A stretch of 64,000 bases of DNA from Ruminococcus champanellensis 18P13 = JCM 17042 (GTDB lineage: Bacteria > Bacillota > Clostridia > Oscillospirales > Ruminococcaceae), in the NCBI RefSeq assembly GCF_000210095.1, contig NC_021039.1:1409861-1473860 (forward strand), in the 5' to 3' direction. Positions 1-46,373 of this stretch are shown piece after piece (within the stretch, counting starts at the first letter, position 1; each line of letters opens with the position of its first letter). Position numbers and translations under genes: made by a program. The notes under the pieces were generated by a model. It saw nothing but the letters and a program-made list of their open reading frames with translations, made no database searches and was not told the DNA's origin.

Positions 1-12
1 TGAAATTCCCTC

Positions 13-379: not shown

Positions 380-1124
380 CCGGAGCTACAGCGTCTTTGC
401 CCGGTACTACGATCTGCTGACGGAGAACGTAGATTACGAAGCCCGGGCGGCATATCTGGACGAGCTGATCCGCCAACTGCATCCGGTGGAGGACTGTGTG
501 CTGCTGGATCTTGCCTGCGGCACCGGCACTCTGTCGGAGGCTATGGCACGCCGGGGCTATGACGTGATCGGGGTGGACGGCTCCGGAGACATGCTCAACG
601 AGGCAGTGGAGAAGAAGTGCGAAAGTGGTCTGCCCATTCAGTATGTGTGCCAGGACATGCGCCGTCTGGAACTGTACGGTACAGTGGACGTGACCATCTG
701 CATGCTGGACAGTCTGAACCACCTGCCGGGGCTTCCGGATATTCAGAATGTGTTCCGCCGGGTGAGTCAATATACGGAACCGGGAGGGCTGTTCCTGTTT
801 GACGTGAACACCCTGCACAAGCATCGGGTGACTCTGGGGGATCAGGTGTTCCTGTTTGACCTGGACGAGGTCTACTGTGTGTGGGAAAACCGGTTTGACG
901 GGGATGCTACGGTGACCATCACCCTGGACTTTTTTGAATCCGGGGACGGGGAGCATTATACCCGCACGACGGAGCAGTTCCGGGAGCGGGCATACCCCCG
1001 GCAGGTACTGGAACAGGCGCTGGAGGATGCGGGCTTTGCAGTGGAAGCGGTATACGGGGCGGACAGTCTGGATCCCCCCACAGAGAATACGGATCGGCTG
1101 ATTTTTGCAGCCAGAAAGAAATGA
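369..1124 (+). CDS. Class I SAM-dependent methyltransferase
   Basis: This is a 251-residue cytosolic methyltransferase with a Rossmann fold. Motif I is DLACGTGTLSEAMA at about residues 43-56, followed by the acidic SAM-ribose-binding segment VIGVDGSGDML. The QDMRRLEL and DVTICMLDSLNHL segments match motifs II and III of the small Methyltransf_25/11 type. The substrate is unknown. The start lies inside the end of the TrpR-like gene (11-bp overlap) and the gene is followed 9 bp later by hslO, so the three form one transcription unit. No targeting signal is seen. Confidence 0.85.
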   Translation: MNSDRSYSVFARYYDLLTENVDYEARAAYLDELIRQLHPVEDCVLLDLACGTGTLSEAMARRGYDVIGVDGSGDMLNEAVEKKCESGLPIQYVCQDMRRLELYGTVDVTICMLDSLNHLPGLPDIQNVFRRVSQYTEPGGLFLFDVNTLHKHRVTLGDQVFLFDLDEVYCVWENRFDGDATVTITLDFFESGDGEHYTRTTEQFRERAYPRQVLEQALEDAGFAVEAVYGADSLDPPTENTDRLIFAARKK

Positions 1125-2086: not shown

Positions 2087-2162
2087 GGGAGCTTAGCTCA
2101 GCTGGGAGAGCATCTGCCTTACAAGCAGAGGGTCATAGGTTCGAGCCCTATAGCTCCCACCA
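2087..2162 (+). tRNA. tRNA-Val (anticodon TAC)
   Basis: The acceptor stem GGGAGCT pairs with AGCTCCC. The D arm, a TTCGAGC T-loop and the anticodon loop CTTACAA (TAC) are present, and 3' CCA is encoded at 2160-2162. It is first of four tandem tRNAs. Confidence 0.97.
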
Positions 2163-2166
2163 CTTT

Positions 2167-2243
2167 GGCCTGGTAGTTCAGTTGGTTAGAACGCCGCCCT
2201 GTCACGGCGGAGGTCGTGAGTTCGAGTCTCATCCAGGTCGCCA
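2167..2243 (+). tRNA. tRNA-Asp (anticodon GTC)
   Basis: The acceptor GGCCTGG pairs with CCAGGTC, with one G-T wobble. The anticodon loop is CTGTCAC, the discriminator is G and CCA is encoded at 2241-2243. It lies 4 bp after tRNA-Val. Confidence 0.97.
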
Positions 2244-2245
2244 CT

Positions 2246-2321
2246 GCGGATTTAGCTCATCTGGTAGAGCGCCACCTTGCCAAGGTGGAGGTAGCGAGTT
2301 CGAGCCTCGTAATCCGCTCCA
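2246..2321 (+). tRNA. tRNA-Gly (anticodon GCC)
   Basis: The acceptor GCGGATT pairs with AATCCGC. The anticodon stem is CCACC/GGTGG with loop TTGCCAA. CCA is encoded at 2319-2321. It lies 2 bp after tRNA-Asp. Confidence 0.97.
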
Positions 2322-2384
2322 AATTTTTTCTTCCGTTGGTATCAAAACGGGTCTTTGTGCGTAGAATATATCAGGCACAAAAAC

Positions 2385-2458
2385 GGCGCTATAGCCAAGT
2401 GGTAAGGCAAGGGTCTGCAACACCCTCATCCCCAGTTCAAATCTGGGTGGCGCCTCCA
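2385..2458 (+). tRNA. tRNA-Cys (anticodon GCA)
   Basis: The acceptor GGCGCTA pairs with TGGCGCC. The anticodon loop is CTGCAAC (GCA), the discriminator is T as expected for Cys, and CCA is encoded at 2456-2458. A 63-bp spacer separates it from tRNA-Gly; no second promoter is obvious there. Confidence 0.96.
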
Positions 2459-30002: not shown

Positions 30003-30029
30003 ACGCTCCGAAAACTGAATAGAAGAACG

Positions 30030-30148
30030 TTTCAGGGCGAGGTGCAATTCCTCACCGGTGGTGATGCGGCATGCTGCAAAGTCCACGAGCCGAAAGGCTG
30101 AATCGGTGCAAATCCGATACCGACGGTTATAGTCCGGATGAGAGAAAC
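30030..30148 (+). ncRNA. FMN riboswitch (RFN element)
   Basis: The aptamer core is recognisable: TTTCAGGGCGAGGTGCAATT, CCTCACCGG, CCACGAGCCGAAAGGCT, TCGGTGCAAATCCGATACCG and AGTCCGGATGAGAGAAAC. The P1 stem GTTTC (30030-30034) pairs with GAAAC (30144-30148). It binds FMN and should repress ribU when FMN is plentiful, through the terminators just downstream. Confidence 0.97.
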
Positions 30149-30200
30149 AAAACGCAAAAATGCGTTTTTTCGCCCATACTGCAATGGTATGGGCGTTTTT
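30149..30200 (+). terminator. Expression platform terminators of the FMN riboswitch
   Basis: Two hairpins follow the aptamer: AAAACGCA/TGCGTTTT (30149-30168) with T6, and CGCCCATAC (30171-30179) with GTATGGGCG (30187-30195) followed by T5. Both are terminator-like; two in series before ribU is noteworthy. Confidence 0.85.
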
Positions 30201-30996: not shown

Positions 30997-32202
30997 ATGA
31001 AACAGTATATTTGCCTGTTGGCAGTATTTTTGATGGGATGCACCCCCGGAACCGGCAGAATCACTCCCGGCATGGGCATGCGTCTGGAGCTTCAGGAGCA
31101 GACGGCAGAGCAGCTGCATCTTCCTGTGCAGCAGTCCGGATCTCCGGTGGTTGCGGCATGGCTGACGGCGGTTTCTCTGTCGGACATGCTCAAGGGGGCT
31201 ACGGAAGCGGCATATCGTGCCGCTGTACACCAGGAGCTGACCTGGCTATGTGAGAATGGTTTTACGGATGTGTTCGTGCAGGTGCGCAGCAATGGAGACG
31301 CCTATTACCGATCCCGGGTGTATCCCAGGGCTGCATCCTGGAGCCAGGATTTTGACCCGTTGCAGGTGTTCCTGGAGGAAAATCGGCAGGTGGGCTTGCA
31401 GGTGCATGCCTGGATCAATCCCTACCGGTGTCAGACCGCCGGGCAGATGCTGAAGATTCCGGATACATATCCCACCCGTATGTGGGCACAGGAACAGGCA
31501 GAACCCATTGTACAGGTGTCCGGCAGATGGTATCTGAACCCGGCAGATGCGCATGCTCAGGCACTGATCTGTACGGGGGCACAGGAGCTTCTGGACGGGT
31601 ATGACATTGCCGGGCTGCACATTGACGACTACTTTTACCCCACCACGGAGCCGGAGATGGACGCCGCTGCCTTTGCTGCATCCCGGTCGGAGGATCTGAC
31701 AGCATGGCGTACAGAGCAGGTAAACACGCTTGTAGCCGCTCTGTATGCCCAAGCCCATGCAGCAGACAGGATCTTCAGCATCAGCCCCCGGGGAGATCCC
31801 GCAGCCAGTGCACAGCTACTGTATGCAGACCCGGAGACCTGGTGCAGCCTGTCGGGCTACTGTGACTGGATCCTGCCGCAGCTATACTATGGCTTTGACA
31901 ATGAGACCTGCGGTTTTGCGGAGATGCTTGCCCTTTGGCAGGGGATGGTGCAAACCGATGGGGTGCGGCTGATCCCCGGCATCTGTACCTATAAGGTGGG
32001 ACAGGCAGACGATTGGGCAGGCACCGGCAGAATGGAATGGGTCACAGAGCAGGAGATCCCGGCACGGCAGGCTGCTGCAGTGCTGGAGGCAGGGCTGAAC
32101 GGGGTGGCAGTATACAGCAGCGCCTCCACCCGGGAACTGGATGCTCCGGAGATGGAGGCGCTGAAACAACAGCTATGCAGGTTTACGCAAGTGCCGCCTT
32201 GA
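30997..32202 (+). CDS. GHL10-type (family 10-like glycosylhydrolase) lipoprotein
   Basis: The 401-residue exported protein has a lipobox signal ending FLMGC (Cys15). The body matches the GHL10/DUF187 group related to glycoside hydrolases: [44 protein letters not shown] and [13 protein letters not shown], in a TIM-barrel order. It probably acts on a surface or cell-wall polysaccharide; the substrate is unknown. ATG 30997 is chosen for signal peptide and spacing. The 3' end overlaps metK, on the opposite strand, by 20 bp. Confidence 0.85.
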
Positions 32203-33358
32203 GGGCGTCCACCATGTCAGTGCGCTCCCAGGCAACCTGTAAGTCCTCACGACCCATATGGCCATATGCAGCCAGTTGACGGTACTGGGGCTTCTTCAGC
32301 TTCAGCTTGCGGATGATAGCAGCGGGTCGCAGGTCAAACACCTTGTCCACAGCCTTTGCAATGGCGCTTTCGTCCGCCTTGCCGGTGCCGAAGGTGTCCA
32401 CCAGAATGGAAACCGGCTTTGCCACGCCGATGGCGTAAGCCAGCTGCACCTCGCACTTGTCTGCCAGTCCGGCAGCGACAATGTTCTTGGCAATGTACCG
32501 TGCTGCGTATGCGGCGGAGCGGTCAACCTTTGTGGGATCCTTGCCGCTGAAAGCGCCGCCCCCGTGCCGGGAATAGCCCCCGTAGGTGTCCACGATGATT
32601 TTTCTGCCGGTCAGACCGCTGTCCCCCTGGGGGCCGCCGATGACGAACCGACCAGTGGGGTTGATGTAGAACTTGGTGTCAGCGTCCATCAGTTCCGCCG
32701 GGATTACCGGCTTGATTACATATTCCAGAATATCCTCCCGGATCTGTTCCAGGGGGATCTCCGGGGCATGCTGGGAAGAAACCACAATGGCGTCCAGCCG
32801 AGCCGGTTTGCCGTCATCGTATTCCACGGTCACCTGGGTCTTGCCGTCCGGCCGCAGATACCGGAGGGTGCCGTCCTTCCGGACAGCGGTCAGTTGCATG
32901 GCAAGCCGATGGGCCAGGGAAATGGGCATGGGCATCAGCTCCTTGGTTTCGTTGCAGGCGTAGCCAAACATAATTCCCTGGTCGCCGGCACCGTTTCCCG
33001 CGTCTGCATCCTCACCCTCCTTGGACTCCAGCGCCTCGTTGACACCCATGGCAATGTCGCAGGACTGCTCGTCCATGGATGTGAGAATGGAGCAGGTATG
33101 ACCGTCAAAGCCGTACTTTGCCCGATCGTAGCCAATGTCTACGATCACCTCCCGGGCGATCCGGGGGATGTCAATGTCCGCCTTGGTGCTGATCTCGCCC
33201 ATGCACAAGACCATACCGGTGGTGCAGCAGGTTTCACAAGCCACTCTGCCCTCCGGATCCTGTTCCAGGATCGCATCCAGAATGGCATCGGAGATCTGGT
33301 CACAGATCTTGTCCGGATGTCCCTCAGTGACAGATTCGGACGTAAAAAATTTTTTCAT
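32183..33358 (-). CDS. metK: S-adenosylmethionine synthetase
   Basis: The 391-residue enzyme makes SAM from methionine and ATP. The start [18 protein letters not shown], the [15 protein letters not shown]-binding motif and the P-loop-like [16 protein letters not shown] are all present. ATG 33358 (minus) follows GGAGG; an upstream in-frame start lies within the leader and is not needed. A SAM-I riboswitch and terminator in the leader give feedback control. It converges with the GHL10 gene and they overlap by 20 bp. Confidence 0.98.
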
Positions 33359-33378
33359 GTTTGCATTCCTCCATACAA

Positions 33379-33404
33379 TAAAAAGAGCGCTCAACATGAG
33401 CGCT
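33379..33404 (-). terminator. Attenuator terminator of the metK SAM riboswitch
   Basis: On the minus strand AGCGCTCA (33404-33397) pairs with TGAGCGCT (33393-33386) around TGT and is followed by CTTTTT. It lies between the aptamer and the metK ribosome site. Confidence 0.92.
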
Positions 33405-33425
33405 TGTGAGTTCTGTATTCACAAA

Positions 33426-33530
33426 CCTCATCTCTCGGATGCTGTGCATCCGCAGGAATTAGCACCTTTCTCGAAAACGAGCGGTTGCCGGGCGTCACAG
33501 GACCAGTTCCTCAGCCTCTCTTGATAAGGG
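33426..33530 (-). ncRNA. SAM-I (S-box) riboswitch
   Basis: Read on the minus strand: CTTATCAAGAGAGGCTGAGG, then ACTGGTCCTGTGACGCCCGG, CAACCGCTCG and AGGTGCTAATTCCTGC, the S-box consensus. P1 pairs CCTTATC with GATGAGG. SAM binding should favour the downstream terminator and switch metK off. Confidence 0.97.
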
Positions 33531-34643: not shown

Positions 34644-35783
34644 TTATTTGTTTTCCAGACCCTTCATCAAAGCGTCTACGATCTCGGGATACTCCCACTT
34701 CATAGCGGTACGGTTATACAAGCCGAATGCCTCACCGGAATTGAAGGCGTTGTTGTCCCACCAGATGCAGGGGATGCCCACCTTGGATGCTGCGGAGGTG
34801 TAGGCGGTTGCCCACTCACAGCGATCCTCTGTATTGTACTTGTTCCGGGCACCGAACTCGCCGATGATGACGGCGTGTCCCTTTTGCAGGAAGTATTGGT
34901 TCAGCGTCTGCATCAGGGTTTCGATCTGAGCAGCGTCCCCGACCGGGTCGTAATCAAAGGTGCCCTTGGCGTTCAGGGCGAAATTATAGGGGGTATATGC
35001 GTGGATGGAAACGATGACCTTATCGTCCTCCGGAATCACAAATTCGCTGAGTACATCCGTTGTGGTTGCAGCCGCATAAGTGGGGATCATGACGCAGCGC
35101 TTGGGATTGTTGCCGCCGCTGTTCCGGATGGTATCCACAAAGGCAGCGTTTAGCTGGTTGATCACATCCCGTGCCTCCGGGTTGCCGCCGCTCCATTCGC
35201 TGGGGGTATCCACCATGCGAGGTTCGTTCATACCCTCAAAGATCAGATGCTCGTCATAGCCCTCAAACCGGGCAGCAATCTGCTTCCAGATGGCAACCAG
35301 CTCCGCCTTGGCAGGCTCCAGATTGTCATAGGAGGGGAAGTGCCAGTCCTCATGGTGCAGGTTGATGATACAGTACAGGTCGTTGTTGATGACGTAATTC
35401 ACAACCTCCTGCACCCGGTTGAGCCACTCCTCGTTGATCTTGTAATCCGGTGCGTCTCCCAGATGCCCTGTCCAGGTTACGGGAACCCGGATCACATTAA
35501 AGCCCTTTTCCTTTACCGCCTTGATCATATCCTCGGTGGTCTTGGGATTGCCCCAACTGGTCTCTGCGCTGAGGGGGTCATCCTTGGTACCGCCGGTGGC
35601 ATCCAGGGTGTTGCCCAGACTCCAGCCGATCTTCAGCTCCTGTACCAACTGGGTGCCGGTCAGATCCCGCATTTCCTTGATCTTATTTTCTTCTTCCTTC
35701 TTGCCGCAGCCTGCCAGCAGACTCATGCCCATGACGCCGGTCAGGCACAGAGCCGCCAGCTTTTTTAGATGTGATTTGATCAT
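34644..35783 (-). CDS. GH5-family glycoside hydrolase (cellulase-like) lipoprotein
   Basis: The 379-residue protein has a lipobox LLAGC (Cys26). The catalytic domain follows at about residue 45: LVQELKIGWSLGNTLDA is the GH5 start, the acid/base is Glu187 in GMNEPRM, and the nucleophile is Glu309 in IIGEFGARN. It resembles endo-beta-1,4-glucanases and would act at the cell surface; no dockerin or binding module is present. It starts 18 bp after the TIM-barrel/acyl-CoA ligase gene and ends at a strong terminator, so it is the last gene of that operon. The exact glucan is uncertain. Confidence 0.9.
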   Translation of the reverse strand: MIKSHLKKLAALCLTGVMGMSLLAGCGKKEEENKIKEMRDLTGTQLVQELKIGWSLGNTLDATGGTKDDPLSAETSWGNPKTTEDMIKAVKEKGFNVIRVPVTWTGHLGDAPDYKINEEWLNRVQEVVNYVINNDLYCIINLHHEDWHFPSYDNLEPAKAELVAIWKQIAARFEGYDEHLIFEGMNEPRMVDTPSEWSGGNPEARDVINQLNAAFVDTIRNSGGNNPKRCVMIPTYAAATTTDVLSEFVIPEDDKVIVSIHAYTPYNFALNAKGTFDYDPVGDAAQIETLMQTLNQYFLQKGHAVIIGEFGARNKYNTEDRCEWATAYTSAASKVGIPCIWWDNNAFNSGEAFGLYNRTAMKWEYPEIVDALMKGLENK

Positions 35784-35801: not shown

Positions 35802-38324
35802 TTACGCAGTGACAATCTTGCTTGCCTGCTGCAAATTCAGCTTTTCTACCGCTGCTTCACGCATTTTGTACTTGAGGATCTTGCCGGCTGCATTCATAGG
35901 GAACTCGGTAACGAAGTCCACATACCGGGGTACCTTGTGCTTTGCCATGTGATCCAGTACATACTGCTTGATCTCTTCCTCGCTGCTGGTTTCCCCGTCA
36001 TTGAGGATGATGCATGCCATGATTTCCTCGCCGTACTGCTTGTCCGGTACGCCGATTACCTGTACATCCTTTACCTTCGGATGGGTGTAGAGAAAGTCCT
36101 CGATCTCCTTGGGGTAGATATTCTCGCCGCCCCGGATGATCATATCCTTGATTCTGCCGGTGATCTTGTAGTAGCCCTTCTTGGTGCGCCGTGCCAGGTC
36201 GCCGGTGTGGAGCCAGCCGTTTTCATCGATGGCGGCAGCAGTTGCCTCCGGCATCTTGTAGTAGCCCTTCATGATATTGTAGCCCCGGGCAACGAATTCG
36301 CCGTCCACCTCGTCCGGAAGATCCTCGTTGGTTTCCGGATCCACGATCTTGCACTCTACGCCGAAGATGGGGCCGCCCACGGTGTTGACACGATCCTCAA
36401 TGGAGTCGGTGGTCTTACTCATGGTAGTTGCCGGGGAAGCCTCGGTCTGCCCGTAGGTAATGCAGATCTCGTCCATGTGCATCTTCTCGATCACATCCTG
36501 CATGGTCTTGATGGGGCAGGGGGAACCTGCCATAATGCCGGTACGCATGTGGGAGAAGTCGGTCTTTTCAAAGTCCGGATGCCCCAGCATAGCGATGAAC
36601 ATGGTGGGCACTCCGTGGAATGCGGTGATCTTCTCCTTGTTGATGCAGGCAAGTCCCTTTCTGGGTGAGAATGCAGTGATGGGAGACATGGTGGTGCCGT
36701 GGGTGACGGATGCGGTCATTGCCAGAACCATGCCGAAGCAGTGGAACATGGGCACCTGGATCATCATCCGGTCTGCGGTGGACAGATCCATGCAGTCGCC
36801 GATGGCCTTGCCGTTGTTGACCACGTTGTAGTGGGTCAGCATAACGCCCTTGGGGAAGCCGGTGGTACCGGAGGTATACTGCATGTTGCACACATCGTTT
36901 TTGTCGATGGTGCGGCGGCGTGCCTCCACCTCGCTATAGGGAACCTGCTCTGCCAGCTTGATTGCCTCATCCCAGGTGTAGCAGCCCGGCTGCCTGGAGT
37001 CGGTGGTGATGATATTCTTCAGGAAGGGGAACTTCTTGGATTCCAGCTTGCCTGGCTCACAGGTTGCAAGCTCCGGACAAAGCTCCTTCATGATGCCCAC
37101 GTAGTCAGAATCCTTGTAGCCGTCGATCATGACCAGGGTGTGGGTATCGGACTGCCGCAGCAGATATTCTGCCTCGTGGATCTTATATGCGGTATTAACG
37201 GTAACCAGTACGGCGCCGATCTTGGTGGTTGCCCAGAAGGTAATGTACCATGCAGGTACATTGGTTGCCCAGATGGCGACGTGATCCCCCTTGCGTACAC
37301 CCATGGCGATCAAAGCCCGGGCAAAGGTGTCCACATCGCTGCGGAATTCCGGATAGGTTCTGGTGTAATCCAGCTCCGTGTAGCGGAACGCATACTGGGT
37401 GGGGAATTCCTCGCACACACGATCCAGCACATCCGGGAAGGTGTAGTCAATGAGCCGCTCCTTGGGCCAGATATACTTGCCGGTTTTCCGGTTGTTGTCC
37501 TGGAGCGGGTGCTTATGCTTTCTGCGGAAGGGACGCATAAATTCTGCATACTGGGGGAATACCACGCCGGCATCCAGCAGATTGGGCATCCACAGCTTGA
37601 CCCATTCCAGGGATACATAGCCGGTGTACTGGATGGACTGGAGGGCTTCGATCATCTTCTGGATGGGCAGATCGCCTTCGCCCATCATCTTGTAGACCAC
37701 CTTGCCGTTTTCCATCACACTGTCCTTGATGTGGACGTACTTGATCAGTTCTCCAAGGTTTGCAACTGTCTGCTCCGGGGATTCACCGGCAAACCGATAG
37801 GGGTGATGCATATCCCACAAAGCAGCGATCTTGTGGCTGTTTACGCTGTCCAGCAGTGCTCTGAGTCGGTGGGTATCGCTGTAAACACCGTTGGTTTCCA
37901 CCAACAGGGTCACATCATACTGCGCTGCAATGGGCGCCAGCTTCTTGAGCTGCTCTGCTACATAGGCGTCATCCACTTCTCCGTTGGGTGCAGCCTCCAG
38001 ATCCGCCAGAACCCGGATATAGGGGGCGTTGATCTGCTGCGCCAGCTTGCAGTATTCGGTCAGTTCCGCAATGGTTTCTGCTTCCTTTTCCTTGAACTTC
38101 AGGCAGCAGCCGGAGGAAAGGCAGGGGATCTCAATGTTCAGTGCCTTCAGCTTTGCCATGGTTTTGGGACGGTTTGCCTCAGTAAAGGGCATTGCCTTGT
38201 AAGCGGCAAAGTCATCGCCCATGCCCCGGATCTCGATGCCGTCAAAGCCAAGATCCTTTGCCATGGAGTAAATATCCACCCAGGAATAATCCGGACAGGC
38301 GATTGTTGAAAAACTGATCTTCAT
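35802..38324 (-). CDS. Fusion of sugar phosphate isomerase/epimerase-type TIM barrel and AMP-dependent acyl-CoA ligase
   Basis: The 840-residue protein has two domains. Residues 1-270 are an AP-endonuclease-2/IolE-like TIM barrel with metal-ligand candidates in LLVETNG, ALWDMHHPY, YVHIKDS and YVSLEW. After a basic linker (about 270-290), residues 290-840 are an ANL-superfamily acyl-CoA synthetase with YTSGTTGFPKGVMLTH near 480, YGQTEASPA near 620, GYYKITGRIKDMIIRGGENI and a C-terminal catalytic lysine in AAGKILKYK. It would activate a carboxylic acid to its CoA ester; the barrel's role is unknown. The stop is 18 bp from the GH5 gene. Confidence 0.88.
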   Translation of the reverse strand: MKISFSTIACPDYSWVDIYSMAKDLGFDGIEIRGMGDDFAAYKAMPFTEANRPKTMAKLKALNIEIPCLSSGCCLKFKEKEAETIAELTEYCKLAQQINAPYIRVLADLEAAPNGEVDDAYVAEQLKKLAPIAAQYDVTLLVETNGVYSDTHRLRALLDSVNSHKIAALWDMHHPYRFAGESPEQTVANLGELIKYVHIKDSVMENGKVVYKMMGEGDLPIQKMIEALQSIQYTGYVSLEWVKLWMPNLLDAGVVFPQYAEFMRPFRRKHKHPLQDNNRKTGKYIWPKERLIDYTFPDVLDRVCEEFPTQYAFRYTELDYTRTYPEFRSDVDTFARALIAMGVRKGDHVAIWATNVPAWYITFWATTKIGAVLVTVNTAYKIHEAEYLLRQSDTHTLVMIDGYKDSDYVGIMKELCPELATCEPGKLESKKFPFLKNIITTDSRQPGCYTWDEAIKLAEQVPYSEVEARRRTIDKNDVCNMQYTSGTTGFPKGVMLTHYNVVNNGKAIGDCMDLSTADRMMIQVPMFHCFGMVLAMTASVTHGTTMSPITAFSPRKGLACINKEKITAFHGVPTMFIAMLGHPDFEKTDFSHMRTGIMAGSPCPIKTMQDVIEKMHMDEICITYGQTEASPATTMSKTTDSIEDRVNTVGGPIFGVECKIVDPETNEDLPDEVDGEFVARGYNIMKGYYKMPEATAAAIDENGWLHTGDLARRTKKGYYKITGRIKDMIIRGGENIYPKEIEDFLYTHPKVKDVQVIGVPDKQYGEEIMACIILNDGETSSEEEIKQYVLDHMAKHKVPRYVDFVTEFPMNAAGKILKYKMREAAVEKLNLQQASKIVTA

Positions 38325-38339
38325 AACGAAAGTCTCTCC

Positions 38340-40004
38340 TTATTTTTGATGATCCTTCTGACGGATCTGGGCACGCTTGATCTTGCCGCCCAGGGTCTTG
38401 GGGAGTTCATCTACATATTCAATGATACGGGGGTATTTGTAGGGGGCTGTTACATGCTTTACATGATTCTGCAGTTCCTTGGTCAGCTCCTGGCTGGCAG
38501 TATAGCCCTTTGCCAGGACGATGGTTGCCTTTACTACCTGTCCACGGATGGGGTCCGGTGCGGCAGTGATGGCGCATTCTACAACAGCCGGATGCTCGAT
38601 CAGCGCACTTTCAACCTCAAAGGGTCCGATCCGGTAGCCGGAGCACTTGATGACATCATCGTTTCTGCCGACGAACCAGTAGTAGCCGTTGGAATCACGC
38701 CAAGCCATGTCGCCGGTGTTGTAATTCTTGCCGCCCAGAACCTTTTCTGTCAGCTCCGGGTTCTTGTAATAGCCGGTGAACAGGCCTACCGGGAAGGATT
38801 TGTCGATATCACAGATGGAAATGGTGCCTTCCTCGCCGTCGTCACACAGGTTACCTTCACTGTCCAGCAGCTGAATGTTGAACAGGGGGGAGGGCTTGCC
38901 GGTGGAGCCGGGCTTGGGGTCGATCCACTTGAAGTTTGCAATCAGAACCGGGCCTTCTGTCTGCCCGAAGCCTTCCCGCATCTTCAGACCGGTCAGATCG
39001 TAGATCTTGCGGAATACCTCCGGATTCAGAGGCTCTCCAGCATTGCAGAAGTTTTCAATGCTGGACAGGTCAAACTTGGACATATCCTCCTGTAGCATGA
39101 ATCGGTACATGGTGGGCGGTGCGCAGAAGGTGGTGATCCGGTACTTGCTGATCTTCTCCAGCAGCTTCAGGGGGATAAACTTGTCCATATCGTAGCAGAA
39201 GATGACTGCACCGCAGATCCACTGACCGTAGATCTTGCCCCAGCCGAACTTTGCCCAGCCGGAGTCGGATACGCTCATATGCAGCTTGTTTTCCTGCACC
39301 TGCTGCCAGTACTTCGCGGTGATGATGTGTCCCAGGGGGTGCGCAAAGTTGTGGCGAACCATCTTGGGCATGCCGGTGGTGCCGGAGGTGAAGTATACCA
39401 GCATGATATCATCCCAGCGGGTGGCAGCCTCCCCGGTGGGGCGCTCAAAGGTATCCGGGAACTTGGCGATTTCCTCCTCCAGGTATGCCCAGCCTTCCCG
39501 CTTTTCTGCTACCATGATCTTATACTGGAGGGTGTCGATCTGGGGAAATGCTGCATTGACCTGGTTCATTACAAAGTCATCGTTGACGCAGATGATTGCC
39601 TTGACGCCGGCAGCATTGCCCCGGTATACAATGTCCTTGGTGGTCAGCTGCAGGGTGCCCGGGATCAGCGTTGCGCCGATCTTGTGCAGGGCAACCGCAC
39701 AGATCCAGTACTCCCAGCGGCGGCGCAGGATCATCATCACCACATCGCCCTTTTGGATGCCCAGGCTTACAAAGTAGTTTGCCGCCTGGTTGGACAGCTT
39801 CTTGATATCGGTAAAGGTGAAGCGGCGTTCCTCATCGTGGTCATTGCACCAAACCAGTGCCAGCTTGTCCGGCTCCTGCTTTGCCCATTCATCTACGATG
39901 TCAAAGCCGAAGTTGAAGTCCTCCGGAACGTTGATCTTGAAATTTTCCTTAAAATCCTCATAGGAATCGAAGTCGATCCGCGGTAGGTATCGGTCTAGCA
40001 ACAT
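38340..40004 (-). CDS. AMP-dependent acyl-CoA synthetase (medium-chain/ACSM-like)
   Basis: The 554-residue ANL enzyme has YFTSGTTGMPKMVRHN near residue 205, GFGQTEGPVL near 355, YYWFVGRNDDVIKCSGYRIG and the C-terminal lysine in TLGGKIKRAQ. The sequence resembles medium-chain acyl-CoA synthetases, known to activate short, branched and aromatic acids. No targeting signal is seen, so it should act in the cytosol. It lies 29 bp after the XRE-cupin gene and 15 bp before the fusion ligase. The substrate is inferred only from class. Confidence 0.9.
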   Translation of the reverse strand: MLLDRYLPRIDFDSYEDFKENFKINVPEDFNFGFDIVDEWAKQEPDKLALVWCNDHDEERRFTFTDIKKLSNQAANYFVSLGIQKGDVVMMILRRRWEYWICAVALHKIGATLIPGTLQLTTKDIVYRGNAAGVKAIICVNDDFVMNQVNAAFPQIDTLQYKIMVAEKREGWAYLEEEIAKFPDTFERPTGEAATRWDDIMLVYFTSGTTGMPKMVRHNFAHPLGHIITAKYWQQVQENKLHMSVSDSGWAKFGWGKIYGQWICGAVIFCYDMDKFIPLKLLEKISKYRITTFCAPPTMYRFMLQEDMSKFDLSSIENFCNAGEPLNPEVFRKIYDLTGLKMREGFGQTEGPVLIANFKWIDPKPGSTGKPSPLFNIQLLDSEGNLCDDGEEGTISICDIDKSFPVGLFTGYYKNPELTEKVLGGKNYNTGDMAWRDSNGYYWFVGRNDDVIKCSGYRIGPFEVESALIEHPAVVECAITAAPDPIRGQVVKATIVLAKGYTASQELTKELQNHVKHVTAPYKYPRIIEYVDELPKTLGGKIKRAQIRQKDHQK

Positions 40005-40033
40005 ATTATATTACTTCCTCTCTTATATGTGGG

Positions 40034-40582
40034 TTATTCAGCGATCACGGTCAAAAATCTTGCCTTGGAGTCGCCCACGCAACGCTGACCGTGGGGGTAG
40101 GTGGGGTTAAAGTAGATGGAGTCGCCCTCGTTCAGGATGATCTCCTTGTCTTCAAACACAACGGCAACACTGCCCTTGAGCACCAGATTGAACTCTTGAC
40201 CCGCATGGGTTACCAGGGAAGCAGGCGCATCGGTCGGATTCAGTGTAACCAGCAGGGGCTGCATGATCTTGTCGGTATAACGGAACGCCAGATCCTTGTA
40301 GCGGTAGCCTTCGTACCGGCTGAAGCTCATGCCATGCCCCCGGCGGACGACGTGATATGTATCCAGTCTTGCAGGAGAACCTGTGACCAGCTCTGTAAAA
40401 TCGACCTTAAACATTTTGGAAATTTCGTAAATGGTGCTGATGGGGAAATTGCCTTCTGTTTCGTAGCCGATGTAGGTTTCTTCAGAAATGCCCAGCTCCT
40501 TTGCCAGCTGTGCGGTGGAATAGTCGCACACCTCCCGTAGCTCCCGGATGCGGTTTGCGATTTCACTGATTTCGCTTTGCAT
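40034..40582 (-). CDS. XRE-family regulator with C-terminal cupin domain
   Basis: The 182-residue protein has an N-terminal helix-turn-helix (residues 8-65: RIRELREVCDYSTAQLAKEL, ISEETYIGYE) and a cupin sensor domain (about 105-182: HAGQEFNLVLKGSVAVVFED, LNEGDSIYFNPTYPHGQRC). Such regulators often sense a metabolite of the pathway they control. As first gene of the operon it probably controls the two ligases and GH5. AAAGGAGG precedes ATG 40582. An intrinsic terminator lies between its promoter and its start. Confidence 0.93.
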   Translation of the reverse strand: MQSEISEIANRIRELREVCDYSTAQLAKELGISEETYIGYETEGNFPISTIYEISKMFKVDFTELVTGSPARLDTYHVVRRGHGMSFSRYEGYRYKDLAFRYTDKIMQPLLVTLNPTDAPASLVTHAGQEFNLVLKGSVAVVFEDKEIILNEGDSIYFNPTYPHGQRCVGDSKARFLTVIAE

Positions 40583-40620
40583 AGTAGTTCCTCCTTTTTG
40601 ATGTCCCTTATGCGGGCAAA

Positions 40621-40656
40621 TAAAAAAACGGTTAAAAGCATACGCCTTTAACCGTT
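40621..40656 (-). terminator. Intrinsic terminator upstream of the XRE-cupin gene
   Basis: On the minus strand AACGGTTAAA (40656-40647) pairs with TTTAACCGTT (40636-40627) and is followed by T7. It lies 55 nt after the leader ORF stop and 38 nt before the XRE gene, so it must be read through for operon expression from the upstream promoter. Confidence 0.92.
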
Positions 40657-40710
40657 ATTGACCATTCTATCAGAACAGGACGCAATTCCAGCGGAACAGC
40701 GCAGCTCCGA

Positions 40711-40785
40711 TCATGCACATAACAGAGGGCGCACAGTATTCTTCAGACGCACGACTGCTAGGTTCACGACGAAAAACTGTGCCAT
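40711..40785 (-). CDS. 24-residue leader peptide ORF, Val/Leu rich
   Basis: On the minus strand GGAGGAGG (40800-40793) lies 7 nt before ATG 40785, an excellent ribosome site. The peptide begins MAQFFVVNLAVVRLKN and ends in PLLCA, with 5 Val and 4 Leu of 24 residues, including two Val-Val pairs and one Leu-Leu. After its TGA, short mutually exclusive hairpins (GGAGC/GTTCC versus TTCC/GGAA) and an intrinsic terminator follow. This is the layout of a transcription-attenuation leader. No homologue is known to me; it could instead be a small membrane peptide. Confidence 0.6.
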   Translation of the reverse strand: MAQFFVVNLAVVRLKNTVRPLLCA

Positions 40786-40823
40786 GGTGGTTCCTCCTCC
40801 TGTAAAATTATGAGCATGTTTTT

Positions 40824-40852
40824 ATTATACGAGCATGCGCCGGATTTGTCAA
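40824..40852 (-). promoter_or_regulatory. Consensus promoter of the leader peptide/XRE/acyl-CoA ligase operon
   Basis: On the minus strand TTGACA (40852-40847) and TATAAT (40829-40824) match consensus with a 17-bp spacer. The leader ORF begins about 38 nt after the -10 box. Confidence 0.9.
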
Positions 40853-40912
40853 GAGCTTTTTGTGTTTTTATCACTTTTCACAGGAAAACAGGGGAAAAAG
40901 CCTGCATCCTTG

Positions 40913-41884
40913 TCAAAAGTTATTCATCAACTGTTTGTAATCCTCCAGGGAATAGGAGTGCGTATCGGTGTCCGGGCTGCTGCTCCGCTTTGCACGGGCG
41001 GCATCCACCGCCTCCCGGCTGGTCAGCCCCTCGTTCTCCCAGGTGGCAAGAATTTTGTCGATGTAGGAGAAATTCAGCTTGTCAATGGATTCCACGCAGA
41101 GCTCGTAGGCGTAGGTGATCATCTCCAGCTTGTAGCCCTTACTCTGCCACTGGTCGATGAATGCCTGCTGCTTGGTGGTGGGGCGGCGCTGCATTTCAAA
41201 CGCCCGTATGATATCCGCAGTAAAGGTGCGCTGCGCCGTCAGTGCCTGTACCTCCTGCTGGGCACGCTGGAAGGTGAGAATATCCCGCTCCTGCCAGCTG
41301 ACTGCAACGGTTTCAATGTAGCGTACATGGGGCTTCTCGATGGAAATGCAGTACCCGATCAGCATCAGGATCACATCCGGCCCAAGTCCCAGATAGTCTC
41401 GCATCCACAGCAGGGAGCGCTGCTCCGTGGGAGTCAGCATCCGGTGAAACTGCTGCTCCGCCATGTCGAACAGGCTCTTGATCTCCCTGGATTCCTGGAT
41501 CCGGGCAGCAAGCTCTGAGGGGGTGGGCAGGAAGCCGGCGCTGGAGCGCTGGGCAAAGGGCTTGGGCACCTCCGTAGCAGGCTGGGGTGTGGGGGCTGCC
41601 GGTGCCGGAGCATTTTGCCGGACTGGCTCCTGGGGCTGTGCCGTGCCGGATCGCTCCAGAATATTGGCTTGCTCCCAGAACAAAAAAGCATCCTCCACCT
41701 GTTCCCTGGAGATGGAGAGTGCCTCCCCGATGGCTTCATCGGTCAGGGTTTCGTTGCCGTGCCGCAGCAGGTACAGCAGTACCCGGAGGGCGTCCGGAGA
41801 TGCAAGCTTTAAAAAGTGATCTGCAACCGCATTGGGAACCGGGAACATCTGGTTCCATGCGCCGCAGTGAAGCTGAAAATCCAT
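40913..41884 (-). CDS. dnaD: DnaD-domain replication protein
   Basis: The 323-residue protein has an N-terminal winged helix (about residues 20-90: LKLASPDALRVLLYLLRHGN), a Pro/Ala-rich linker (about 95-125) and two C-terminal DnaD/DnaB-type helical domains (LGLGPDVILMLIGYCI, WQSKGYKLEMITYAYELC). In Firmicutes DnaD helps open DNA and recruit the helicase loader at the origin. A loader-like gene lies nearby at 45393. The ATG follows AGGAG. It is last in fhs-tsaE-tsaB-dnaD. Confidence 0.88.
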   Translation of the reverse strand: MDFQLHCGAWNQMFPVPNAVADHFLKLASPDALRVLLYLLRHGNETLTDEAIGEALSISREQVEDAFLFWEQANILERSGTAQPQEPVRQNAPAPAAPTPQPATEVPKPFAQRSSAGFLPTPSELAARIQESREIKSLFDMAEQQFHRMLTPTEQRSLLWMRDYLGLGPDVILMLIGYCISIEKPHVRYIETVAVSWQERDILTFQRAQQEVQALTAQRTFTADIIRAFEMQRRPTTKQQAFIDQWQSKGYKLEMITYAYELCVESIDKLNFSYIDKILATWENEGLTSREAVDAARAKRSSSPDTDTHSYSLEDYKQLMNNF

Positions 41885-44842: not shown

Positions 44843-45400
44843 ATGCATCCCTGGAAGCACTTTTGTACCATTACCCGGCACCGGCATCAGGTAATCCGGC
44901 ATTGCCGGAAAGCGGGTATTCTCTGGCAGGGGCTGCGGCATGACCTGTCCAAGTATACTCCCACGGAATTCATTCCCGGCGCCCGGTATTATATCGGCAC
45001 CCGGAGCCCCAACGAGGGGGAGCGGCAGGACAAGGGCTACTCCCTTGCCTGGATGCACCACAAGGGGCGGAACCGCCATCATTTCGAGTACTGGACGGAC
45101 TATGTGCCCCCGACCCGGAGGATGCAGCCGGTGCCCATGCCCGCCCGGTATGTGGCGGAAATGTTCTGTGACCGGGTGGCAGCCAGCAAGATCTATCTGG
45201 GGGAGCAGTATTCCAACGATGCGCCCCTGGCATATTTTCTCCGGGGAAAGCCTGGCAGAATGATCCATCCGGATACTTCTGACCAATTGGAGCGGCTGCT
45301 GACCATCCTTGCACAGGAAGGGGAGGATGCCGCCTTTTCAGCAGTGCGGCAGATGGTGAAGAAAGCAAAGCAAGGAAAGGAGCCGGGACGGCATGAATAA
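44843..45400 (+). CDS. DUF5662 family protein
   Basis: The 185-residue soluble protein is rich in His, Arg and Tyr. It matches the DUF5662 pattern with HRHQVIRHCRKAGI, GLRHDLSKYTPTEF, AWMHHKGRNRHHFEYW and MPARYVAEMFCDRVAAS. Clustered His and Asp residues suggest a metal-dependent HD-like fold, but this is speculation. GGAGGGGG precedes ATG 44843. It overlaps the helicase-loader gene by 8 bp. Function unknown. Confidence 0.8.
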   Translation: MHPWKHFCTITRHRHQVIRHCRKAGILWQGLRHDLSKYTPTEFIPGARYYIGTRSPNEGERQDKGYSLAWMHHKGRNRHHFEYWTDYVPPTRRMQPVPMPARYVAEMFCDRVAASKIYLGEQYSNDAPLAYFLRGKPGRMIHPDTSDQLERLLTILAQEGEDAAFSAVRQMVKKAKQGKEPGRHE

Positions 45401-46373
45401 ATACGAACAGTTTCAGGAGGCTATGCGTACCATCCAGGCACGGCGCACGGCGGCAAACGCCCTGGCGGAGGCGCGCACCAGGGAAGTGAACGAACGCTTT
45501 CCCCAGATCCGGGAGATCAACAGCCGCCTGTCGGATACGGCAATGGAGCTGTTTCATGTGCTGCAGGCTGGGGGAGACACCCAGGAGCAGATCGAGCAGA
45601 TCCGCCGCCGGAATCTGGAGGGGCAGCGAATCGTCCGGCAGATGCTCCTTGCCAACGGCTTGCCAGAGGATTATCTGGAGCTGCACTATACCTGCCCCAA
45701 ATGCGATGACACGGGCTATGCCAACGGGTGCTACTGTGACTGTCTGAAGCGGGAGCTGGGCAGACTTGCTATCGAGGAGATGAACCGGCATGCCCAGGTG
45801 AAGCTGTGCAGCTTCGACAGCTTTTCTCTGGAGTATTACCGGAACGATCCGGCATGCTACGAGACCATGCGACGGATCCTTGCCTTCTGCAAGCGGTATG
45901 CAGCCCAGTTTGATTCCCATGCCCCCAGTCTGCTGCTGTCCGGCAACACGGGGCTTGGCAAGACCCATCTGTCCCTTGCCATTGCCAGCGAGGTGATGCA
46001 GAAGGGGTATGGGGTGCTGTACGATTCGGTCATCAACCTGCTGCGCCGGGTGGAGCGGGAGCATTTCGGCAGAGGCGAGGTAGGGGCGGATACCCTGGAG
46101 ATTCTGCTGACCTGTGATCTGCTGATCCTGGACGATCTGGGTGCAGAATTTGACAGCAGCTTTTATGTGTCCACTGTGTACAACATCATCAACACCCGGC
46201 TCAACTGCGGCCTGCCCACCATCATCAGCACCAATCTGACCCATGAGCAGGTGCAGCGCCGGTATGAGGACCGGATCGTGTCCCGGCTCTTTGCCACCTA
46301 TACGGGGCTGCATTTTGTGGGAACGGATGTGCGGCTACAAAAGGCAAAGAAAGCTGCCCAGCAGAATGTATGA
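45393..46373 (+). CDS. DnaC/DnaI-type ATP-binding helicase loader
   Basis: The 326-residue AAA+ protein has a helical N-terminal region, a cysteine cluster (CPKCDDTGYANGCYCDCLK) near residue 105 that may bind zinc, and the ATPase domain. Walker A is SGNTGLGKTHLSLAIA near 190 and Walker B is LLILDDLGAEF near 245; STNLTHEQVQRRYEDR and RLF follow. DnaI-type loaders place the replicative helicase. A DnaD-like gene lies 3.5 kb away on the other strand. The start overlaps DUF5662 by 8 bp. Confidence 0.9.
   Translation: MNKYEQFQEAMRTIQARRTAANALAEARTREVNERFPQIREINSRLSDTAMELFHVLQAGGDTQEQIEQIRRRNLEGQRIVRQMLLANGLPEDYLELHYTCPKCDDTGYANGCYCDCLKRELGRLAIEEMNRHAQVKLCSFDSFSLEYYRNDPACYETMRRILAFCKRYAAQFDSHAPSLLLSGNTGLGKTHLSLAIASEVMQKGYGVLYDSVINLLRRVEREHFGRGEVGADTLEILLTCDLLILDDLGAEFDSSFYVSTVYNIINTRLNCGLPTIISTNLTHEQVQRRYEDRIVSRLFATYTGLHFVGTDVRLQKAKKAAQQNV

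Follow-up and report, generated by a model that had tools for sequence, protein, structure and literature searches.

A short, valine-rich reading frame upstream of an acyl-CoA ligase operon in Ruminococcus champanellensis probably encodes the leader peptide of a ribosome-mediated transcription attenuator that would read the charging of valyl-tRNA. This is the best explanation we have for a set of elements on the minus strand of the stretch of DNA that we analyzed (the window, 64,000 nucleotides from a genome consisting of a single contig of 2,573,208 bases). The basis is computational throughout; the elements, their conservation, three alternative helices, and the genomic context were all computed. 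We refer to the genome of the window as G000, to two congeners as G001 and G002, and to individual loci by L numbers. These three genomes make up our sample of the genus, with G000 and G002 being nearly identical.

The original prediction placed a promoter, a strong ribosome-binding site, a 24-codon ORF, and a terminator in front of an XRE-cupin/acyl-CoA ligase/GH5 operon, and this arrangement is confirmed by sequence, by Pfam matches, and by the recurrence of the leader elements and the XRE-cupin gene in G001 and G002 (Table 1). The peptide, which starts at the ATG at position 40785, also has the composition claimed for it: 9 of its 24 residues are Val or Leu (5 Val and 4 Leu), including two Val-Val pairs. 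The promoter, the leader ORF, the terminator, and the XRE-cupin gene occur in all three genomes, and the leader always precedes an XRE-cupin gene and a ligase gene. Thus in each of the three, a short ORF with a ribosome site, whose translation is predicted, lies ahead of a terminator within one transcript, as judged from the ORF, the Shine-Dalgarno (SD) sequence, the promoter, and the terminator.

Table 1. Coordinates of the leader elements and operon genes in the window.
Feature	Position	Strand	Evidence and remarks
Sigma-70-type promoter, TTGACA-17-TATAAT	40824..40852	-	12/12 consensus match; 12/12 in G001 and G002 too
Leader ribosome-binding site, AGGAGGAGG	40793..40801	-	6/6 to AGGAGG; 5/6 in G001
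Leader ORF, 24 codons, MAQFFVVNLAVVRLKNTVRPLLCA then stop	40711..40785	-	Translation; orthologues in G002 and G001
Putative control codons 6-12, Val Val Asn Leu Ala Val Val (GTC GTG AAC CTA GCA GTC GTG)	40750..40770	-	Base-identical in three genomes; within modelled stall-permissive range
Segment 1, TCGTCGTGAACCTAGCAG, over codons 5-11; partner is segment 2	40755..40772	-	Hairpin in G000, G002, and G001
Segment 2, CTGTTATGTGCATGATC, holds leader stop codon; partner is segment 1 or 3	40709..40725	-	Folding; bases largely kept in G001 despite the other frame
Segment 3, GGTCAATAACGG; partner is segment 2 (predicted antiterminator); AACGG within it is the terminator 5' foot	40652..40663	-	Folding
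Intrinsic terminator hairpin (3:4), 13 pairs, then U-tract	40627..40656	-	Terminator scan; -16.6 kcal/mol
XRE-cupin regulator, first operon gene	40034..40582	-	HTH_3 and Cupin_2
Branched short-chain acyl-CoA ligase, MacsMa/MbcS-like	38340..40004	-	AMP-binding; PDB 3etc_A, E 8e-221; NCBIfam MbcS, 466.5 bits
TIM-barrel (AP_endonuc_2) and second AMP-binding ligase in one protein	35802..38324	-	Pfam
GH5 cellulase-family lipoprotein, probably last operon gene	34644..35783	-	PF00150; 18-base gap

Taken one at a time, the elements differ in how far they exceed background. Shuffled versions of the region 40000-41500 contain a mean of 1.2 promoter sites matching at least 9 of the 12 consensus positions, and no second promoter at this threshold is found on the minus strand of the region itself. 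The terminator scan by itself is near chance, with 2 found against 1.6 expected, and the fold of the whole leader is only moderately better than that of shuffled sequences (z -2.26; 4 of 200 as good). On comparison of the sequences, what rises above chance is the conservation of the whole element set, rather than any single element.

We also searched for known classes of regulatory RNA. At the leader site, Rfam gives no match at the gathering cut-off; relaxing E to 10 within 40560-40900 yields just SNORA27, SNORD65, and FsrA, all at chance level, and we rejected a riboswitch. A T-box, with its stem I and specifier loop and its GGUGGNACC antiterminator box, was not found either: RF00230 matched nowhere in the window at the gathering cut-off, nor at E of 10 or below in 40560-40900. 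Elsewhere the window holds a SAM riboswitch (33425-33530, minus strand) before an S-adenosylmethionine synthetase gene (32183-33397), an FMN riboswitch (30024-30153, plus strand), a cluster of four tRNA genes (2087-2455, plus strand), and an ORF of 447 codons (44970-46313, minus strand) with no Pfam match at E 0.001.

The operon genes are separated by gaps of 29, 15, and 18 bases. The XRE-cupin regulator, the ligase, and the GH5 protein named in the original prediction are all present, but a second ligase, fused to a TIM barrel, had gone unmentioned. This fusion protein of 840 residues combines a xylose-isomerase-like domain (PF01261) with PF00501 and PF13193, and G002 (L042) has a frame of similar size at the corresponding position. 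In G002, these genes are likewise followed by an ORF whose start closely resembles that of the GH5 gene.

That the target genes activate branched-chain acids, another part of the original prediction, is supported by computation. The nearest PDB chain to the first ligase by far is 3etc_A, which is MacsMa from Methanosarcina acetivorans; its preferred substrate is reported to be 2-methylbutyrate (PMC10455477). The best NCBIfam model is MbcS (NF047394), whose score lies below the curated cut-off of 850, placing the enzyme outside the family as curated. Staphylococcus MbcS activates 2-methylbutyrate and isobutyrate, and isovalerate poorly, according to its description (PMC10026030). Because these substrates are precursors of Ile and Val and include no Leu precursor, they would fit a Val/Ile signal without Leu.

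The G002 leader is 95% identical to that of G000. G001 lies further away, its XRE-cupin protein being 75% identical. The original prediction had named loss or drift of the ORF beside a kept terminator as evidence against an attenuator, and G001 displays the opposite pattern. The 38 bases from the ATG (codons 1-12 and two bases of codon 13) are unchanged relative to G000, and in codons 2-12 all silent sites are kept (7/7 four-fold and 4/4 two-fold, counted by eye), as compared to 22/60 four-fold and 42/57 two-fold sites in the neighboring XRE gene. In the ligase gene, 98 of 199 four-fold silent sites are identical. The chance of keeping 7/7 four-fold sites is about 9e-4 at the XRE rate and about 7e-3 at the ligase rate.

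Downstream of these codons, the G001 leader has one base fewer, and after codon 13 it is read in another frame, with the stop at codon 22 instead of 25 (MAQFFVVNLAVVRSCKKCALC); this stop codon still falls within segment 2. Despite the frame change, the 3' block GTGCGCCCTCTGTTA is unchanged base for base, and is followed by GTxCATGAT. The C-terminus of the peptide therefore differs between G000 and G001 while the underlying bases are kept. Conservation of the N-terminal codons and of the bases of the 3' segment, but not of the C-terminal peptide, is what is expected of an attenuator, in which the first part would be read by the ribosome and the second would take part in RNA pairing. G000 and G001 share the terminator 5' arm AACGGTyAAAGGCGTA; its variable position y (T/C) is matched by A/G in the 3' arm, amounting to one compensated pair, U-A to C-G (by eye).

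We looked for further copies of the leader in several ways. A search of 396 family genomes with a 23-base leader core, allowing up to 3 mismatches, gave a sole extra match, in G249, which is at the level of the backwards-pattern control (4 matches). Searching 148 family genomes for the short peptide returned two matches, G000 and G002, and a DNA search of 61 genomes with the whole leader returned four, one of which, G029, covers query bases 9-42 only and was set aside. A degenerate-peptide scan of genome contigs yielded three matches: G001 and G002 again (L041, L042) and one Pollutimonas, which we took as a chance match on grounds of organism alone. No convincing copy outside the genus was found in these DNA and peptide searches.

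Short alternative hairpins were part of the original prediction, and folding indeed finds helices 1:2, 2:3, and 3:4 in all three leaders. Pairing of segment 1 with segment 2 (CTGTTAxGTxCATGAT) has energies of -20.2, -21.5, and -25.1 kcal/mol in G000, G002, and G001, respectively, the order in which all three-part values are given below. The 2..3 fold, which forms around a spacer hairpin whose sequence differs between G000 and G001, reaches -27.0, -27.9, and -25.8 kcal/mol, and the terminator -16.6, -16.6, and -18.8 kcal/mol. Hairpin 1:2 beats most shuffled sequences (46, 14, and 5 of 500 as good); compared to synonymous recodings, it is clearly better in G001 only (356, 161, and 24 of 1000 as good). 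For the 2..3 segment, too, few shuffles fold equally well (9, 3, and 33 of 500); taken alone, the 2/3 duplex does not exceed shuffled sequences (157, 198, and 178 of 2000 as good).

From these elements we infer that the leader is translated and that ribosome stalling within it leads to read-through. Transcription would start just below the -10 box (the start is assumed), and the leader peptide would be translated at once. When Val-tRNA is charged, the ribosome would reach the stop codon and cover segment 2, leaving segment 3 free to form the terminator, and transcription would end. When Val-tRNA is short, the ribosome would stall on one of the Val-Val pairs (codons 6/7 or 11/12), covering segment 1; segments 2 and 3 would then pair, taking up the foot of the terminator, and polymerase would enter the XRE-cupin/acyl-CoA ligase operon. 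If there is no translation, helix 1:2 would form and the terminator would win.

We modelled the effect of ribosome position using a 30-base ribosome and an untranscribed terminator 3' arm, with both the start site and the footprint assumed. A modelled stall at Val6/7 gives a probability of 2:3 pairing, p(2:3), of 0.96, 0.96, and 0.84-0.85, and a stall at Val11/12 gives 0.77-0.86. With the ribosome at the stop codon, p(2:3) is 0.00 in all three leaders; in the model, then, a ribosome at this position prevents the antiterminator. Leading edges from +10 to +16 give similar values, the lowest being 0.68 for Val6 of G001. When every codon is scanned, the permissive range extends from about codon 4 to codon 14-16, depending on the footprint, and p(2:3) is at most 0.14 from codon 17 onward. 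This range takes in the four conserved Val codons (6, 7, 11, and 12), which lie over the segment to be masked, and leaves out Val18, Leu21, and Leu22 of G000. The stalling codon is not singled out by the model, since Phe4/5, Asn8, Leu9, Ala10, and Arg13 are also in the permissive range.

At full-length equilibrium, the terminator is favored in every ribosome state (p34 0.97-1.00), so that the switch must be kinetic; the antiterminator would need to hold only until polymerase passes. Antiterminator and terminator share five foot pairs in G000 and G002 and two in G001, where these are the two lowest pairs of the terminator and the rest can coexist with the antiterminator. Contrary to the scheme, the ribosome-free state of G000 has p23 at 0.64 and p12 at 0.19.

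The strongest support for the attenuator reading comes from outside the window, where predicted T-boxes for Ile and for Val precede homologous ligase operons. Our surveys list 60 XRE-cupin places in 100 family genomes, 42 in 295 order genomes, and 44 in 391 class genomes, each list including G000's own place. We read the upstream regions of 59 of the 60 family places (G023:C116 starts at a contig end and was omitted) and found a T-box at 25, the leader at one (G000), and neither at 33. By pattern, none of the 41 further order places or the 43 further class places has a T-box. Beyond these lists, the leader occurs in L002 and L003, and T-boxes occur in L068 (G002) and L071 (G123).

Altogether 27 T-boxes precede homologous ligase operons or genes, all with a Rfam E of 2e-14 or better; 12 lie above the gathering score (93 bits) and the remaining 15 score 74.3-92.1 bits. 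We took the specifiers from the Rfam alignments, except in L138, where the pattern alone was used. They read AUC (Ile) in 23 cases and Val in four (GUC in L014 and L031, GUA in L071 and L158); none reads Leu. As a control, we read the specifiers of eight other G000 T-boxes and obtained the expected amino acid in six, with the genes named from their proteins: tyrS-like (UAC), leuA-like (CUC), trpE-like (UGG), alaS-like (GCU), cysE-like (UGC), and pheS-like (UUC). The trpB-like and thrS-like controls gave no clean specifier.

Each of the four genomes that carry a Val T-box has an Ile T-box as well, on a different ligase copy; listed with the Val locus first, these are G093 (L014, L069), G076 (L031, L070), G123 (L071, L035), and G063 (L158, L155). 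In G000 and G002, the Val-rich leader is on the first ligase copy and an Ile (AUC) T-box on the second (L046 and L068, respectively), which is an XRE-cupin-ligase fusion; the second ligase copies of G001 lie at contig ends. Several of these loci have features of their own. The fused copy in G000 (L046 1808-3232, plus strand; G000:C1 1080712 on) spans 772 residues as one open frame, and fusions of a similar kind are seen in further family genomes. G063:C170 carries tandem XRE-cupin-ligase copies, the first with the Ile (AUC) T-box L155 and the second with the Val (GUA) T-box L158. The T-box of L071 (G123:C53, 2193-2453, plus strand; 104.4 bits; GUA, Val) lies directly before a ligase without an XRE-cupin gene.

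The closest comparison to the leader locus is L014 in G093, which has a Val (GUC) T-box; its ligase is 71% and its XRE-cupin protein 61-62% identical. In the XRE tree, L014 groups with the leader genomes in a 12-row clade (100/99), and by this comparison, the leader occupies the position where the orthologue in G093 has its predicted Val T-box. The Val T-box loci do not group together in the tree, with L031 in an Ile T-box clade; L018 is placed next to G000, though insecurely, with a branch of 1.22. The closest orthologous operons besides that of G093 (L012, L013, L015-L017, L107-L120) have neither a T-box nor a leader. In the genomes of L012, L013, and L015-L017, the other copy has an Ile T-box in G104, G074, and G114 (L144, L139, L140) and none in G119 and G087 (L137, L147).

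Given that the first survey had required a good SD, we rescanned 147 upstream regions without this filter. The rescan flagged 17 loci: those of the three genus genomes, L150, and 13 with unremarkable ORFs containing Leu, Val, or Ile, five of them in T-box loci, which we set aside by eye. At L150 (G105:C14, ~465-620, plus strand), the ORF MIIINTMIICMMIMMICSVSP has 7 Ile among 21 residues and is followed by a hairpin with a U-run before an XRE-cupin-ligase copy. The surroundings are AT-rich, and there is no T-box, no clear SD, and no clear promoter at this locus. We treat it as a lead, a tentative candidate for an independent leader-peptide attenuator that would possibly respond to Ile.

Cellulolytic ruminococci have a long-known requirement for branched short-chain acids. 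In G000 we found no match for ilvD, while 14 of 14 controls match. The sole KARI_N match (21 bits) is a 2-hydroxyacid-dehydrogenase-like protein, so we rejected it as a true ilvC. VorB scores above the cut-off, an adjoining beta-subunit-like ORF is under all cut-offs, and two IorA matches are above the cut-off. With VorB and without ilvD and ilvC, G000 must either obtain Val and Ile from outside or make them from acids that are activated and reductively carboxylated. Isobutyrate, and probably 2-methylbutyrate too, would be converted by the ligase to the CoA esters, from which VorB-type oxidoreductases would form the 2-oxoacids of Val and Ile. No ilvD match was found in G002. The gene is present in G001 (assembly 83% complete, 3% contamination), and so the need for acid salvage is not genus-wide. 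A strict link between the attenuator and loss of ilvD was likewise rejected: 7 of 20 chosen genomes have ilvD, including G001, G077, G013, G070, G104, and G035, which bear a leader or a T-box on some copy.

These observations bear on which amino acid is sensed. The original prediction had ribosomes stalling at Val or Leu codons to allow read-through; our computations support stalling at Val and lend no support to Leu. The same attenuator might respond to leucine, or to branched-chain amino acids generally, and the four Leu residues of the G000 peptide and the conserved Leu9 (CTA), which lies in segment 1, speak for this. But the permissive range holds four conserved Val and a single conserved Leu, Leu9; Leu14 is replaced by Lys in G002 and by Ser in G001, and Leu21/22 are non-permissive, as a ribosome stalled there would cover segment 2. 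None of the 27 T-boxes on homologous ligases has a Leu specifier, and the leuA-like gene of G000 has a Leu (CUC) T-box of its own, all of which makes a leucine or general signal unlikely in our judgment. Valine is the likely signal, given T-boxes for Ile and Val only, a MacsMa/MbcS-like ligase, the lack of ilvD and ilvC, and the presence of VorB.

We weighed two other explanations as well. The leader could be a structured RNA, either a new riboswitch or a protein-binding leader, whose ORF is incidental and whose 1:2 arms are both conserved as an aptamer. Silent sites and the 3' arm in its other frame are indeed conserved, and where G000 and G001 differ within the paired part of the hairpin, the differences fall on positions left unpaired in the fold. 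We nevertheless find this quite improbable: all three genomes preserve the start codon, the ribosome site, and codons 1-12, with the stop still in segment 2; our searches gave neither an Rfam match nor a convincing copy elsewhere, and the T-boxes on homologous operons are amino-acid-specific. Alternatively, the ORF could simply be an expressed gene for a small protein, with a terminator of the ordinary kind behind it and the operon reached by fixed read-through or from another promoter. The conserved N-terminus and the strong SD and promoter would suit such a protein; its C-terminus, however, is not conserved between G000 and G001 although the bases encoding it are, the terminator sits between promoter and operon and has a conserved alternative partner, and no other minus-strand promoter was found in the region searched. 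We consider this reading very unlikely.

A valine-reading attenuator would have relatives among known systems. The enterobacterial trp and ilv attenuators operate by alternative 1:2, 2:3, and 3:4 pairings with the stop codon in segment 2. The R. champanellensis leader has the same predicted logic, with its stop in segment 2, but differs in its genes and amino acids, and in the spacer hairpin that separates segments 2 and 3. Leader-peptide attenuators of branched-chain amino acid (BCAA) operons are already known from enterobacteria, and they have been described in Firmicutes too (Staphylococcus, PMC5794164; Listeria). The ilv-leu operon of Staphylococcus aureus has a leucine-rich attenuator peptide (Kaiser et al, 2018; PMC5794164). 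By its description, it resembles our candidate in being a short BCAA-rich ORF in a Firmicute with a terminator and an antiterminator before a BCAA-supply operon; unlike that leader, which has Leu and also Ile and serves ilv-leu biosynthesis, the one described here has Val and precedes an acyl-CoA ligase operon. For the BCAA operon of Listeria monocytogenes, ribosome-mediated attenuation is named in the literature (PMC5864092); here too the likeness, ribosome-mediated attenuation in a Firmicute, is one of description. The 27 RF00230 T-boxes share with the leader the kind of target, a signal from uncharged Val or Ile tRNA, and antitermination, as predicted here. Unlike T-boxes, which bind tRNA directly and have no translated ORF, the leader has an ORF and no T-box match. 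In the open-access literature searched, we found no T-box or leader attenuator of a branched-acid acyl-CoA ligase, and no case of a genome in which two copies of a gene carry different charged-tRNA sensors. As far as we searched that literature, the new features are the target, the clade, and the presence of a leader instead of a Val T-box.

On balance we favor the view that in one lineage, a ribosome-read leader stands in place of a Val T-box. Within the same cell, one ligase copy would respond to Ile through its T-box and the other to Val through the leader, and salvage of carboxylic acids for amino-acid synthesis, not a classical biosynthetic operon, would thereby come under amino-acid control; the exchange may have recurred at L150 in G105. 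With the GH5 gene 18 bases below the ligases and perhaps co-operonic, in G002 as well, a cellulase-family enzyme would come under valine control too. From the Val and Ile T-boxes and the leader, an amino-acid signal can be predicted for every ligase copy, which in turn predicts its substrate as isobutyrate or 2-methylbutyrate. The case would offer a clean set for studying how charged-tRNA sensors are exchanged before the same genes.
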